From assembly GCA_012521675.1 (NCBI GenBank), contig JAAYLU010000083.1, forward strand, positions 1 to 41,700: DNA of 41,700 nucleotides, read 5' to 3'. Origin of the DNA: Synergistaceae bacterium. Its GTDB lineage: Bacteria > Synergistota > Synergistia > Synergistales > Aminobacteriaceae. The stretch's first letter is position 1. Each line of letters begins with the position of its first letter. This document shows positions 33,463-39,578 of this stretch, one piece after another. A program made the position numbers and the translations under genes. The notes under the pieces were generated by a model. The model had not been told where the DNA came from. It ran no database searches and worked only from the letters and a program-made list of their open reading frames with translations.

Positions 33463-36081
33463 GTGACGGGAGCAAGGGCGACGATCGACGGCATACCGGT
33501 GACGGCCGATCCGGATACGACCGTTCTCCAGGCCGCGAGGGCAGCGGGGATATATATACCCACCCTTTGCGACCACCATGCGGTCAGCCCGTTCGGAGCA
33601 TGTCGACTCTGCCTGGTAGAGGTGGAGGGATCGCCCAAGCTCCTCACCGCTTGCACCACTCCGATAACCGATGGGGCGGTCATACATACGACCACCCCTC
33701 GGGTTATCGGTGCACGGAAGGCCGTGCTTGAACTGATTCTGGCCCGTCATCCTCTTGAATGCGAAGGCTGCCCCAACGAAGGGGCCTGCGAGCTGCAGAA
33801 GATCGCGCGCGAGCTGGGGGTCGAGACCTCCCCCTTCGCGGACGAGGGAGCTCCCCGAACGCATGAAGGAATCGAGGACGCCAACCCCTTTTACACGAGG
33901 GACCTTGACAAATGCATTCTCTGCGGTCGATGCGTGCGAGTATGCCGTGAACAGGCGATACGCCGGGCGATCGTCTTTTGCGGGCGTGGCCGGGAGACGT
34001 CGGTAGGGCTGCCTGACGAGTCCGGATGCGACCTGTGCGGTCAGTGCGTGCAGGTCTGCCCGGCCGGGGCCCTCATGGAAAAGACCTTCGTGGACACAGG
34101 CCGGCCCGCAGACGCGAAAAGCGTGAGGACGATCTGCCCCCACTGCAGCGTGGGGTGCGAGCTTGTGGTCAACGTTGACGAGGCCTCGGGGAAGATATCG
34201 AACGTGACGACCGATTATTCCCGCAGCACGAGTTTGAATCGGGGCAGATCCTGCGTAAAGGGGCGCTTTGCATGGCGTTTCGTCCACAGAGAGGAGCGTT
34301 TGACCGTCCCTCTCCTCAAAGAGGGAGGCGCCTTCCGAAGGGCATCGTGGAGCGAGGCTCTCCTGCTCGTCGCAGACCGGCTGGGCGAGATAAAAAACGC
34401 ACACGGTCCCGGTGCGCTGGGCTTTTTAGCGTCCCATCACTGCACCAACGAGGAGAACTACCTCATGCAGCGCCTGGCCAGGGAGGTCGTTGGAACCGAC
34501 AATATCGACCTGGGCTCGAGCGTTCATTCGGACACGGCGTCGAGCCTTCTGATCACGTTGCCTGCGTGCGGTGCCATGACGAACGACTTTCAATCCATCA
34601 CCGAGTCGGACGTAATTCTCGTAATAGGTGCCGACCCGACGGAGAACCAGCCGGTGGCCGGTACTTTCACCAAGGAGCGATTCGCGGGAGGGGAGTGCGC
34701 ATTGTTAGTCTGCGACCCCAGGAGGACCGAGCTCGCAAGATGCTCGACGATCCACGCGAGGCAGAGGCTAGGCTCGGAGACGGCGCTGCTTAACGGCATG
34801 ATGAATGTCATCATCGACGAGGGGCTCTACGATCACGAGGCGGTCTCAAGTGCCGCCGAGGGATTCTACGAGCTGAGAAAAACCGTCGAAAGCTACACCC
34901 CCGATGCCGTCTCGACTATCACGGGCCTGCCCGCGCAGATTGTTCGCGAACTGGCAAGGATCTACGCCAGGGGGCCCAACTCCGCCGTCTTCTTTACTCC
35001 CGTGGCGACACGGCACATCGACTCGTTCAAAACCCTGCTGGCGACGTATAACCTGTCGCTCCTTTGCGGCATGTACGGCAGGGCCGGTACCGGCGTGAAT
35101 CCTTTGACGGGAAAAGGGAACCGCCAGGGTGCGATCGACGCTGGTTGCATGCCGGGTCTCGCCCCCGGCTTAAGAAAGATCAGTACGGATCTCATTCCCG
35201 AGACTCCCGGACTTGGTGCCGGAGAGATGTTGCAGGCTGCCGTGGACGGAAAGCTGGCGGGCATGTACATCATGGGCGCAAACCCCCTCGGGACGGACTT
35301 CCCCGATGCAGCAGCCCGTGCCCTTAACAGCTTGGAGTTCCTGGTCGTCCAGGATCTATTCCTTACCGAGACGGCCGAGCTGGCCGACGTGATTCTGCCT
35401 GCGGCAGGCTGGGGAGAGAAGGACGGTACTTTCACGAACGTTTGCCGCTCTGTCCAACGGCTTCAAAAGGCCGTGGAACCGCCGGGCGAAGCCCTCCCGG
35501 ACTGGGAGATAATACAGCGGATAGCAAGGCGAATGGGCGCAGGATGGGGCGCATACGGCTCTCCAGAGTCGATTTTTGACGAGATGCGCCTGTTAAACCC
35601 GCACTACGCCGGAATTACGTACGAACAGCTTGATGAAGGGCCTCTGTCATGGCCTTGTCCGGTGCCTGGGCATCCCGGAACCCCTCTCCTTCCCTCGTTG
35701 AACCTCGAGGGAGGGAAGACGCGTTTTTATTCTTGCGAATGGTCGCCGCCCGACGTGTGGCCGACCGAGCGCTTCCCGTTCGTGGCTCTGTCCGATTCTC
35801 CATTCTTGGACGGCCGAGCGGAGAGCATGATGTACAGGGATGTCACGGGAGAGTTCGTCAAAGATCCCGTCATCGGGATCAACCCTTATGACGCCGCAGA
35901 CCTTGGTGTAAGATCCGGGGAGAGAATAAAGGTCGCCTCCGCCGGAGTAGAGTTCTTTGGAGACGCCAAACTTTCGGACAGTGTGCCCTCGGGCACGGTC
36001 CGGCTTCCAAATCACCACAAGTTCGGGCATGATACCGGGATGCTCGAGCTCGGCGCTGTGAGGCTTGAACGTACCGTTTGA
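33463..36081 (+). CDS. FdhA/NuoG-type molybdopterin oxidoreductase subunit with altered active site
   Basis: The 872-residue protein begins with NuoG-like domains. Cluster ligands are all present: [2Fe-2S] at C36, C47, C50, C64; His-Cys cluster at H96, C100, C103, C109; two [4Fe-4S] at C151-C161 and C189-C199. The molybdenum-subunit cluster is at C225, C228, C232, C264, then Lys266, which relays electrons. The molybdopterin domain matches formate dehydrogenase alpha subunits in sequence (CTNEENYLMQRLAREVVGT; GVNPLTGKGNRQGAIDAG). However, the ligand position normally Cys or Sec falls at V354/H355 in GSSVHSDTASSLL, and the Arg of RGQNNVQG is Thr549. The GTG start has only a weak AGG upstream. 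Formate dehydrogenase activity is doubtful; NADH-linked electron transfer or another substrate is possible. Confidence 0.9.
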   Translation: MTGARATIDGIPVTADPDTTVLQAARAAGIYIPTLCDHHAVSPFGACRLCLVEVEGSPKLLTACTTPITDGAVIHTTTPRVIGARKAVLELILARHPLECEGCPNEGACELQKIARELGVETSPFADEGAPRTHEGIEDANPFYTRDLDKCILCGRCVRVCREQAIRRAIVFCGRGRETSVGLPDESGCDLCGQCVQVCPAGALMEKTFVDTGRPADAKSVRTICPHCSVGCELVVNVDEASGKISNVTTDYSRSTSLNRGRSCVKGRFAWRFVHREERLTVPLLKEGGAFRRASWSEALLLVADRLGEIKNAHGPGALGFLASHHCTNEENYLMQRLAREVVGTDNIDLGSSVHSDTASSLLITLPACGAMTNDFQSITESDVILVIGADPTENQPVAGTFTKERFAGGECALLVCDPRRTELARCSTIHARQRLGSETALLNGMMNVIIDEGLYDHEAVSSAAEGFYELRKTVESYTPDAVSTITGLPAQIVRELARIYARGPNSAVFFTPVATRHIDSFKTLLATYNLSLLCGMYGRAGTGVNPLTGKGNRQGAIDAGCMPGLAPGLRKISTDLIPETPGLGAGEMLQAAVDGKLAGMYIMGANPLGTDFPDAAARALNSLEFLVVQDLFLTETAELADVILPAAGWGEKDGTFTNVCRSVQRLQKAVEPPGEALPDWEIIQRIARRMGAGWGAYGSPESIFDEMRLLNPHYAGITYEQLDEGPLSWPCPVPGHPGTPLLPSLNLEGGKTRFYSCEWSPPDVWPTERFPFVALSDSPFLDGRAESMMYRDVTGEFVKDPVIGINPYDAADLGVRSGERIKVASAGVEFFGDAKLSDSVPSGTVRLPNHHKFGHDTGMLELGAVRLERTV

Positions 36082-36209
36082 GCACCCCGTTTCGGCGCAC
36101 TGCGCCTGATACCCTGGCTGTGACATTTGGGAACAAGCGTTTAACGGACTGCGTCATACGAATTGATGCGGCCGTTTAAAACAAACAAACGAAAGAGAGG
36201 ATTCAGAAA

Positions 36210-37031
36210 TTGAAGACACCAGCGGAACTGGCAAAACTGGCATGTGCGGTTTCAAAAGTCAAGGGTAATCTCTCGGTCAGGCAGATGGTCCTCATGGGGA
36301 TCCTGGCGGGCGCCTACATCGCCTTCGCGGGATGGCTCATGACCGTCGTGTCTCACGACATGACGCCCCTGTACGGCGGAGGGATAACCAGGTTGATCTC
36401 CGGCGCGGTATTCAGCGTCGGGCTGATGATGGTCGTGATAAGCGGATCGGAGCTATTCACCGGCAACTGCATGATGCCCCTTGGCTACCTCGCGGGATGC
36501 ACGCCCATGAAGAATATCCTGCGTAACTGGGGCTGGGTCTACTGTGCCAACCTCGTGGGCAGCATCCTCATCGCTCTTTTGATCTTCTTCTCCGGACTTG
36601 CCGACGGCGCGGTCGGAGGCAGGGCTCTCCAGGTCGCCGCCGGCAAAATGACCCTTCCGTTCGGACAGGCCTTCTTCCGCGGGGTCCTCTGCAACTGGCT
36701 CGTCGTGCTTGCGGTCTGGATGGGAATGGCCGCAACTGAGATAGTGGACAAGATCTGGGCGATCTTCTTCCCGATCATGACGTTCGTCGCCGCGGGCTTC
36801 GAGCACTCCATCGCCAACATGTACTTCATGGCGCTCGGCATGTTCCTGAAGGGCACCCCCGCGGCGGTAGAGGCATCCGGGCTCTCCGAGCAGGTCCTTT
36901 CACGCGTCGGAGTGGGCGGCTATCTCAGCAACCTGATCCCCGTGACCATCGGAAACATGGTTGGAGGAATAGTCTTCGTCGCCGTGTTCTACTACTTCAT
37001 ATTCAAGGACGGCCTTACGGACCTCGAATAG
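36210..37031 (+). CDS. focA: FocA-type formate/nitrite channel
   Basis: Inner-membrane pentameric channel of the FNT family that passes formate and related anions. The 273-residue protein has six hydrophobic segments, the family motif GSELFTGNCMMPLGYLAG, and the later NWLVVLAVWMG and AGFEHSIANMYF stretches with the pore His. Translation starts at TTG 36210 with AGAGAGG 9 bases upstream. It follows the molybdopterin gene after 128 bases without a terminator, so it may be co-transcribed; a strong terminator stands 22 bases after it. This neighbour is the main reason to connect the operon with formate. Nitrite or hydrosulfide transport is also possible in this family. Confidence 0.92.
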   Translation: MKTPAELAKLACAVSKVKGNLSVRQMVLMGILAGAYIAFAGWLMTVVSHDMTPLYGGGITRLISGAVFSVGLMMVVISGSELFTGNCMMPLGYLAGCTPMKNILRNWGWVYCANLVGSILIALLIFFSGLADGAVGGRALQVAAGKMTLPFGQAFFRGVLCNWLVVLAVWMGMAATEIVDKIWAIFFPIMTFVAAGFEHSIANMYFMALGMFLKGTPAAVEASGLSEQVLSRVGVGGYLSNLIPVTIGNMVGGIVFVAVFYYFIFKDGLTDLE

Positions 37032-37052: not shown

Positions 37053-37088
37053 AAGGCAATCGCCCGAAAAGAGGCGATTGCCTTTTTT
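37053..37088 (+). terminator. Strong rho-independent terminator of the redox operon
   Basis: AAGGCAATCGCC pairs perfectly with GGCGATTGCCTT around an eight-base loop and ends in six T. Confidence 0.92.
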
Positions 37089-37089
37089 A

Positions 37090-37098
37090 TGCTATAAT
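37090..37098 (+). promoter_or_regulatory. Extended -10 promoter of the 6S RNA
   Basis: TGCTATAAT, a perfect extended -10 starting two bases after the T-run of the preceding terminator. The -35 place overlaps the terminator stem and is not conserved. Predicted start is about 37105. Confidence 0.6.
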
Positions 37099-37104
37099 GT
37101 TCTC

Positions 37105-37290
37105 AGAAAGAGTCCCTGCGGTGCCCGTGATCGTGATTTTTGTCTTGAGCCAACACTCGCGCCTTGCGGGGCCGCCAGTTCGGGCCGGTGGAGGAGCCGT
37201 GAAAACGGTGACGAAACTGAGGCTTGACAGGCCCTAATGCTATAGGAACGGGTCAAGACGTTCATGACACGGCATTGCGGGGAAGCATCA
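37105..37290 (+). ncRNA. ssrS: 6S RNA candidate
   Basis: 6S RNA binds the housekeeping RNA polymerase by mimicking an open promoter. This gene-free stretch folds into one long irregular hairpin. 37114-37125 pairs with 37271-37282 (12 pairs with a few G-U), 37127-37129 with 37268-37270, 37131-37136 with 37262-37267, and 37142-37148 with 37253-37259. Inside lies an open central region with a small hairpin on its 3' side (CCTA at 37233-37236 with TAGG at 37243-37246), a hallmark of 6S RNA. The apical arm includes CCGT-GAAA-ACGG. It has its own promoter and terminator. 6S RNA near rarA is a known arrangement in other bacteria. Length of about 185 fits. Call made by folding by eye only. Confidence 0.75.
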
Positions 37291-37291
37291 G

Positions 37292-37325
37292 GACAGGGAC
37301 GGAGATATGCCGCTCCCTGTCTTTT
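37292..37325 (+). terminator. Terminator after the 6S RNA
   Basis: GACAGGGA pairs with TCCCTGTC, with an inner CGG/CCG pairing, then TTTTATT. It sits 4 bases before the AGGAGG site of the HAD gene, so readthrough could still supply that gene. Confidence 0.8.
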
Positions 37326-37341
37326 ATTAGGAGGAAAACCC

Positions 37342-38313
37342 TTGTCTTCACACGGATGTACACACCTCTGGCGCCCCGCCCTTTCAAGCTCGTTCATCCT
37401 GGACTGGGACGGTGTCCTGGCCGAGACCAAGCTCAGCTTCGCCCATATTCGAGAGAAGTACTTCCAAGGCAGATTCGTCCCCCTGTTCGAGTCGATAGAG
37501 ACTCTCCCTGCGGAGACGGCCAAGGCACTGGAAAAAGACATATACAACGAAGAAATGAGAGGCGCCGAGATCGCCGAGGCGGTTCCCGGCGCCTTCGAGC
37601 TCGTCGAATGGCTCCAGGCGAAGGGCATCCCCTGGTGCGTCGTATCAAGGAACTGCTTCGACTCCATTCGCCTGGCGGCGCAGAAAGCGGGCCTCTCCTT
37701 GCCATCGATCGTATACAGCAGGGATACGCCGCCTGTAAAACCTTCCCCGGAGGCCCTATGGCGGGCCGCGGAGGATATGAAGGTCCACCCGTCGGGTTGC
37801 CTCATGATAGGGGACTTCGTCTACGACCTGGTGGGCGCGAGGCGCGCAGGCATGAGGGCGGTCCTGGTGCAGCGCCCGGGAGTGGAATGGGAGCATTGGG
37901 CGGACGCCTCCTTCGACAGGCTGCTGGATTTCGTGGAAGTGCTGAAGAAAGAAGGTTCGCTCCAGGCCTGGGAGTACAGGGCGCTTCAAGGATCCGGTGG
38001 TGACGCCGCCTCCCTCGAAGCCTTGGCCGGATGCGCTCTTTCGATGCCCGACTCCCGCGAGGACATCCTCTCTGTGTGCATGAAGTGCGCTGCAAGAGGG
38101 GTGTTGAACTTCCACCTGGAGGGGGAGGGGACCCTGGGCGCCGCCCAGTGGTTCGAGATCCAGGGATTGTCGCCCGAGTGGCTCGATATGCCTGTGAAAG
38201 AGGTGTTGAAACACCTGCTCGGCTTGAAGTATCCTCTCGCCCGCGTTATCGATGATATGGCCGGATTCACCGCCCTGCGGGTGAACGAGGCAGGAGAACC
38301 GGAGGTACTGTGA
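37342..38313 (+). CDS. HAD-family hydrolase with an unassigned C-terminal domain
   Basis: The 323-residue protein has a haloacid-dehalogenase-type phosphatase core in residues about 15-190: FILDWDGVLAETK with the nucleophile and general-acid Asp pair, VVSRN as motif II, KPSPEAL with the conserved Lys, and GDFVYDLVGARRAGM as motif IV. Residues about 195-323 are not recognised and could bind a partner or substrate. Translation probably starts at TTG 37342, with AGGAGG 7 bases upstream; an upstream in-frame ATG at 37264 lies within the 6S RNA and is rejected. rarA follows with a one-base overlap (TGATG), so both are made from one message. Confidence 0.87.
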   Translation: MSSHGCTHLWRPALSSSFILDWDGVLAETKLSFAHIREKYFQGRFVPLFESIETLPAETAKALEKDIYNEEMRGAEIAEAVPGAFELVEWLQAKGIPWCVVSRNCFDSIRLAAQKAGLSLPSIVYSRDTPPVKPSPEALWRAAEDMKVHPSGCLMIGDFVYDLVGARRAGMRAVLVQRPGVEWEHWADASFDRLLDFVEVLKKEGSLQAWEYRALQGSGGDAASLEALAGCALSMPDSREDILSVCMKCAARGVLNFHLEGEGTLGAAQWFEIQGLSPEWLDMPVKEVLKHLLGLKYPLARVIDDMAGFTALRVNEAGEPEVL

Positions 38314-39578
38314 TGACGCCCCGCGGGTTTGCCGAGACACCCTTGGCGGAGAGGATGCGTCCCGGGAACCTCGACGAGGTGGCGGGACAGGCGCATCTGA
38401 TTGGGGAGGGCGCGCCTCTCAGGAGAATAATCAATTCCGGGGTCTTGCCAAGCTGCATCCTGTACGGGCCGCCAGGAACCGGCAAGACGACCCTGGCCCG
38501 CCTTATGGCCCGCCTGACGGACAGGGATATCCTCGAGATCAACGCAGTGTCCGCGAAGGTCGCCGAGCTTCGCGACCTGCTGAAAGAATCGGAGAGACTG
38601 AAGGCCTTCAGATCGGGCAGAAGCGCCGTCTCCTTCGTCGACGAGATCTATCACTTCAACCGGACTCAGCAGAACGTCCTGCTTCCCTCGGTCGAGAGGG
38701 GAGACATAGTGCTGGTCGGGGCGACCACCGAGAACCCCTGGTTCGAGATAAACAAGACCCTTCTCTCGCGCATGATGGTCTTCGAGCTTCAACCCCTTCA
38801 GACGGACGACCTTGTAAAACTCCTTCACGCTGCGCTCCATGACGATGAGCGAGGCCTTGGCGGCCTTGACGTTGCTTTCGAGGACGAGGCTCTGCGCAGG
38901 ATCGCACTGACGGCCGGAGGCGACGCGCGCCAGGCTTTGGGACGCCTCGAGTTTGTCGCGATGGCGGCCCTCGGCCTCAAGAAAAAAGTGACGGAGGAGT
39001 TCGCCTTAAAAACCCTGCCCGCCGCGGCGATAAGGCACGACAAGTCGGCCGACGATCATTACGCGGTGATCTCCGCCCTTATTAAGAGCATAAGGGGCTC
39101 CGACCCCGACGCGGCCATCTACTGGCTTTCCAGGCTCCTCGTGGCGGGAGAGGATCTGCGGTTCATCTGCAGACGCCTTCAGATATCCGCTGCGGAGGAC
39201 ATAGGTCTCGCCGATCCGCACGCCCTGGTCGTAGCCTCGTCGGCGGCCCGGGCCGTAGACATGACAGGCATGCCGGAGGCCAGGATCATACTTGCCGAGG
39301 CAGTCATATACCTCGCGGCGGCGCCGAAGAGCAACAGCGCGTACCTCGCGGTGGATAGAGCGATGAAATCCATCACGCAGGGCAACCTACAGAGCGTGCC
39401 TTACCACCTGCGCCCAGGCGGCGAAGGCTATGCATACCCACACGACTCCCCGGGACACTGGGTCTCTCAGCAGTACATGACGGAACTGGCGCGTTTTTAC
39501 TACCCGGGCGAGCTTGGAGCGGAAAAGGACATGCTGGACAGGCTGAAGAAGTATTGGAGGCGCTTCAGCACCCCCTAG
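38313..39578 (+). CDS. rarA: RarA (MgsA) replication-associated recombination ATPase
   Basis: AAA+ ATPase of the clamp-loader-like family that acts at stalled replication forks. The 421-residue protein has the family opening PLAERMRPGNLDEVAGQAHLIG, Walker A GPPGTGKTT, the NAVSAKVAELRDLL segment, Walker B as VDEIYHFNRTQQN (most homologues have His where Tyr stands), sensor 1 GATTENPWFEIN and LSR. The C-terminal tetramerisation part has HYAVISALIKSIRGSDPDAAIYWLSRLL and the ending PGHWVSQQYMTE. ATG 38313 overlaps the HAD stop, with GGAGG 7 bases upstream. The minus-strand pseudogene remnant ends within its last codons. Confidence 0.95.
   Translation: MTPRGFAETPLAERMRPGNLDEVAGQAHLIGEGAPLRRIINSGVLPSCILYGPPGTGKTTLARLMARLTDRDILEINAVSAKVAELRDLLKESERLKAFRSGRSAVSFVDEIYHFNRTQQNVLLPSVERGDIVLVGATTENPWFEINKTLLSRMMVFELQPLQTDDLVKLLHAALHDDERGLGGLDVAFEDEALRRIALTAGGDARQALGRLEFVAMAALGLKKKVTEEFALKTLPAAAIRHDKSADDHYAVISALIKSIRGSDPDAAIYWLSRLLVAGEDLRFICRRLQISAAEDIGLADPHALVVASSAARAVDMTGMPEARIILAEAVIYLAAAPKSNSAYLAVDRAMKSITQGNLQSVPYHLRPGGEGYAYPHDSPGHWVSQQYMTELARFYYPGELGAEKDMLDRLKKYWRRFSTP

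Follow-up and report, generated by a model that had tools for sequence, protein, structure and literature searches.

Does the short gap between a formate/nitrite transporter gene and the genes for a HAD-superfamily hydrolase and RarA in a Synergistaceae bacterium encode a 6S RNA? 6S RNA, found in many bacteria, regulates RNA polymerase by parking it when nutrients run out. The gap lies in a stretch of 41,700 nucleotides (contig JAAYLU010000083.1; hereafter the window), to which all coordinates refer; the RNA, its promoter and terminator, the terminator preceding it and the two genes following it are on the plus strand. A preliminary description of this DNA had proposed an unannotated 6S RNA gene 5' of HAD-rarA. 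That proposal is supported both by a match to the Rfam 6S model and by covariation in relatives, so that neither of the two outcomes named there as refuting it (a missing covariance-model hit and a lack of compensatory changes) was observed. We regard it as almost certain that the locus is a 6S RNA gene, the only one in the genome of this Synergistota bacterium. The gene is thus of a known kind, and is a new member of it in a phylum in which 6S RNA is little described.

Identification of the 6S RNA gene

The search of the interval against RF00013 (Rfam 6S), suggested in the preliminary description as a check, gave at a relaxed threshold a significant match at positions 37110-37287 (37.9 bits, E = 3.8e-6), which covers the full length of the covariance model (1-187 of 187). 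It is the sole match of this model in the 2.2-Mb genome (97.6% complete), which also encodes RpoD. The score is lower than the Rfam gathering cut-off for RF00013 (46.4 bits), which is a curation rule and not a biological definition. At the gathering threshold the window gives a tRNA only and no 6S RNA, and because of this low score standard annotation would miss the gene. RF00013 finds 6S RNA in 109 of the 188 Synergistota genomes, in 43 of them above the cut-off. Since the orthologues of these 43 genomes exceed the cut-off, with scores of up to 92.4 bits, the shortfall of the window reflects divergence from the Rfam model, not absence of the RNA. These counts, together with a search of the available literature in which no study of the RNA in Synergistota turned up, bear out the earlier remark that 6S RNA is poorly documented in genomes of this type.

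Transcript boundaries and genetic neighborhood

The 6S RNA was placed at positions 37105-37287, and its presumed ends give a length of about 183 nucleotides, or up to about 222 nucleotides if the transcript extends to the terminator. The shorter value is within the range of a typical 6S RNA (about 160-200 nucleotides) with its own promoter and terminator, both of which were recognized here by sequence. At the 5' end, the extended -10 element of the preliminary description (TGCTATAAT) was found at 37090-37098, which places the transcription start near A37105. No good -35 box at the right spacing from this element was seen in the window sequence. A pattern scan placed the terminator of the preceding formate/nitrite transporter gene at 37053-37088, directly against the -10 element of the 6S RNA gene. 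Because this terminator ends where the -10 element starts (37053-37098), a -35 box would sit within the terminator stem; transcription of the 6S RNA probably relies on the extended -10 element. In 40 of the 91 loci the exact motif TGnTATAAT lies at most 32 bases upstream of the homologue; for comparison, the locus DNA as a whole (381 kb) has 65 copies on the same strand.

The strong terminator reported earlier for the 3' end is also present: the predicted fold contains a 13-pair stem (37290-37323) followed by a U-rich tail, so that the whole element occupies 37290-37327. A stricter pattern scan for terminators missed it and reported only that of the upstream gene. Among the homologues, a terminator-like structure is located 3' of the 6S RNA in 31 of 89 loci, compared with 6 in shuffled flanks.

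The HAD-superfamily hydrolase gene (37342-38313; Pfam HAD_2, E 4.4e-15) is followed by rarA (MgsA; 38310-39578; Pfam MgsA_C, E 7.5e-57). HAD models match the hydrolase up to approximately residue 206, and the remainder of the protein is without a family match. The claim that the 6S stretch is gene-free holds only in part: it agrees with the likely start of the HAD gene, a TTG codon at 37342 behind GGAGG, but an ATG open frame from 37264, within the 6S RNA, joins the HAD gene (37264-38313). With automatic gene calling, the HAD gene may in this way be extended across the 6S RNA, which would then be hidden. On the other side, the region 33463-37031 encodes a formate dehydrogenase-like alpha subunit and then the formate/nitrite transporter, gene assignments suggesting formate handling beside the 6S RNA gene.

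Downstream sequence of 1,480 bases or more is available at 80 loci; on the same strand, rarA is found there in 54 of them and the HAD gene in 56, usually with HAD before rarA. The resemblance to the neighborhood in other bacteria, pointed out before, is therefore a feature of most relatives, and Firmicutes too keep 6S RNA adjoining rarA (PMC8414754); the 6S-HAD-rarA order conserved in Synergistota echoes the arrangement in that phylum. In the window the RNA lies immediately 5' of HAD-rarA, in the same orientation, and only 14 bases separate the end of its terminator from the likely TTG start. Such a position would also suit, instead of a free RNA, a cis-acting leader (a riboswitch or an attenuator) of a HAD-rarA operon. 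We consider this very unlikely, as the segment's only credible Rfam match is 6S, the RNA comes with a promoter element and a terminator of its own, and it is conserved in clades without HAD or rarA downstream (e.g., genomes G022, G033 and G010, and genus g16). Because the RNA persists where both genes are absent, it was not taken for a leader of HAD-rarA.

Occurrence of 6S RNA in Synergistota

We collected 91 homologues, aligned 66 of them and built a covariance model from these 66 relatives. This Synergistota model finds 6S RNA in 168 of the 188 genomes and in 60 of the 63 genera, and with detection in 110 of 116 good-quality genomes it constitutes a working model for finding 6S RNA in the phylum. 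The 6S RNA of the window, which is a training member, obtains 159.4 bits. Sequences outside the training set, including those of the most distant families (f11 and f12), are found as well, with E-values of about 1e-17 or better. Acetomicrobium hydrogeniformans (L125), a cultured relative, also has the gene, and named relatives bear out the placement in Synergistota. The lack of a 6S RNA in two congeners (G001 and G004) was treated as a result of assembly gaps and not as true absence: in G001 the contig starts some 87 bases ahead of the rarA match and the upstream part is missing; in G004 a true rarA was not found.

The model gives one match per genome, with the exception of G099. This genome, belonging to a genus with mostly short 6S forms, is the only one scanned with two matches (contigs C15 and C93), both of full length, which could represent a duplication or mixed strains.

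A motif pattern derived from the Synergistota 6S RNAs and scanned over all species found a locus of Salisediminibacterium, which RF00013 independently identifies as 6S RNA (62.8 bits). Pattern matches in Hylemonella and Tepidimonas were rejected: there is no 6S match at those loci, and about three chance matches are expected by our own estimate.

Template of the predicted product RNA

6S RNAs carry the start of their product RNA at the edge of the central bubble. In the window, the putative template UUGAGCCAAC occupies positions 37145-37154, and the corresponding motif YUGAGCCAAC is present in 89 of the 91 homologues, at the bubble edge. The template is followed by an A in the window and in the homologues; separately, a G is found one base further on in 23 of the 91. 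The product RNA predicted from this sequence is 5'-GUUGGCUCAAGAC-3', with its start opposite C37154; it would begin with GUU and contain GGCUCA at positions 4-9. From the template, the product RNA is expected to begin with GUUGGCUCA or GUUGGCUCAAG, and in Acetomicrobium with GUUGGCUCAAGGC. Both the GG at positions 4 and 5 and the A beside the start agree with the rule given for product RNAs (PMC8414754).

These features also bear on whether the RNA could be Ms1-like, binding the RNA polymerase core rather than the sigma-bearing holoenzyme. PMC9130861 presents Ms1 as structurally related to 6S RNA and as likewise binding RNA polymerase, and also assigns it to Actinobacteria, which it names as an exception to the distribution of 6S RNA. 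The Rfam match of the window is to RF00013 and its template, with GG at positions 4 and 5 of the product RNA, is 6S-like, so we judge an Ms1-like identity to be even more improbable than a leader.

Predicted fold and covariation

The predicted fold of 37105-37287 has a free energy of -85.2 kcal/mol, as against a mean of -64 kcal/mol (sd 4.4) for dinucleotide shuffles (z -4.8), and none of 200 such shuffles folds as low. The long hairpin with an open middle, originally counted as 12+3+6+7 pairs, appears in this fold with 13, 3, 6 and 8+2 pairs. In five helices compared among 88 homologues (the outer stem, the inner stem and three apical helices), 26 of 42 pairs show changes on both sides and 92.8% of the cells are paired; the count covers these five helices, block 3 of the stem (37131-37136/37262-37267) being too poorly aligned across the phylum. 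Shuffles give a mean of 18.2 pairs with both-side changes, and 0 of 500 reach 26. None of the slid pairing registers approaches the consensus register (88 sequences). The covariation recurs on an unguided MAFFT alignment, not fitted to the structure (again 0 of 500 shuffles), and all five helices display compensatory changes. There is thus good support for the outer stem, the inner stem and the three apical helices, as covariation is seen on both alignments, and the compensatory changes in relatives that the preliminary description had called for were found.

The supported structure consists of a closing stem, an open central bubble and an apical arm. The 5' strand of the outer closing stem (37114-37129) pairs with 37268-37282 (15 pairs, 6 of them with both-side changes in the 88 sequences, and 90.2% of cells paired), and that of the inner closing stem (GUCUUGA.CC; 37142-37151) with GG.UCAAGAC at 37250-37259 (9 pairs, 3 of them with both-side changes, and 100% of cells paired). 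The 5' side of the central bubble (37152-37167) is without consensus pairing and includes the highly conserved CAACRCU. The apical arm comprises (i) a base helix, 37168-37173 with 37230-37235, in which 6 of 6 pairs have both-side changes (90.3% paired), (ii) a second helix, 37178-37186 with 37221-37228, with 7 of 8 such pairs (90.3% paired), and (iii) a terminal hairpin (37196-37209), 37196-37199 with 37206-37209, with 4 of 4 (94.3% paired). In the single-sequence ensemble the base helix is populated to only about 10%.

The small hairpin described earlier on the 3' side of the middle (CCUA/UAGG; 37233-37246) does occur in the minimum-energy fold, with a pairing probability of about 0.9 in the single-sequence fold, but it shares C37233-U37235 with the base helix of the apical arm. 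It was rejected as a conserved family feature, since it competes with this helix, which covaries across the phylum.

A chance stem-loop between two genes might be suspected from the inverted repeats in this short gap and from the sub-cut-off Rfam score, but its probability is negligible: the phylum-wide conservation and the compensatory changes refute it.

Proposed mechanism of action and release

By extension from the family, the Synergistota 6S RNA would mimic an open promoter and, under nutrient shortage, occupy the form of RNA polymerase that contains the housekeeping sigma factor. When nucleotide levels rise, the polymerase would use the template to synthesize a short product RNA (5'-GUUGGCUCAAGAC...), and the 6S RNA would be released. 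By analogy, the 6S RNA of the window most likely binds the sigma-bearing RNA polymerase and is freed by synthesis of the product RNA.

Once the inner stem is displaced, ACUCG on the 5' side of the bubble (37155-37159), a putative strand of a collapse helix, would pair with the freed CGGGU (37249-37253) in a helix resembling that of 6S-1 of Bacillus subtilis. With the template held unpaired, as it would be by the product RNA, the predicted fold pairs ACUCG with CGGGU and closes the base helix of the apical arm. At least 4 contiguous pairs in the collapse register are found in 72 of the 91 homologues; the GGGU of the 3' strand is nearly invariant, so covariation is uninformative here. In 48 genus representatives, the RNA's own 5' and 3' strands give -10.8 kcal/mol compared with -9.65 kcal/mol for shuffled ones (0 of 5,000), a comparison uncorrected for kinship. 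These modelled pairings are only suggestive of a release helix formed by collapse of the central bulge in Synergistota 6S RNA. A release hairpin of the Escherichia coli type, formed from the flanks of GGGUCAAGRC (GAACG/CGUUC in the window), was rejected, as l2-r2 pairs occur in 43 sequences, with 42.5 expected by chance.

Short forms of 6S RNA

Genus g16, of the same family as the window, contains 6S matches of only 109-138 bases in at least 23 genomes (among them loci L163, of genome G107, L164-L179, L182, L084, L087 and L092). In the 20 short forms that were aligned, template block and closing stem are both retained. In their predicted folds one or two tiny hairpins replace the apical arm, and in G107 (109 bases) only a bare loop is left. 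RF00013 detects L084 and L092, below the cut-off. Since two genomes of this genus, G087 and G099, have kept a full-length 6S RNA, the loss of the arm probably arose inside g16. We think it rather likely that the g16 RNAs have lost the apical (upstream) arm and, if functional, are natural 6S RNAs without an upstream duplex, and so minimal promoter mimics. The apical arm would in that case be dispensable, and the short forms make the need of 6S RNA for the upstream arm directly testable. In family f3, three members (L098 of G038, L113 of G125 and L114 of G127) have a 6S RNA of only 152 bases, in which the apical arm may have been shortened independently.

Comparison with known 6S RNAs

Among characterized members of RF00013, 6S-1 of B. 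subtilis shares with the window (i) a rod composed of a closing stem, an open center and an apical arm, (ii) a product RNA beginning with GUU (GUUCGGUCAAAACU in B. subtilis; PMC12005410), (iii) the proximity of rarA and, possibly, (iv) a collapse helix of the central bulge. It differs in the location of GG in the product RNA (positions 5 and 6, as opposed to 4 and 5 in the window), and the sequence is otherwise diverged. In addition, the window has a HAD gene between the 6S RNA gene and rarA, and its genome has one 6S copy only.

In 6S RNA of E. coli (ssrS; RF00013), as in that of the window, the closing-stem sequence is close to the family consensus and the product RNA contains GGCUCA with GG at positions 4 and 5 (AUCGGCUCAGGGG in E. 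coli; PMC12005410), whereas the product RNA starts with A in E. coli and with G in the window. The E. coli RNA refolds via a central hairpin (PMC12005410), a covarying equivalent of which was not found in the Synergistota homologues. The product RNA of Aquifex aeolicus 6S RNA (GUAGGCCCC...) differs in sequence after position 6, but it likewise has GGC in its 5' part, and a collapse helix has been proposed for that RNA as well (PMC4227106).
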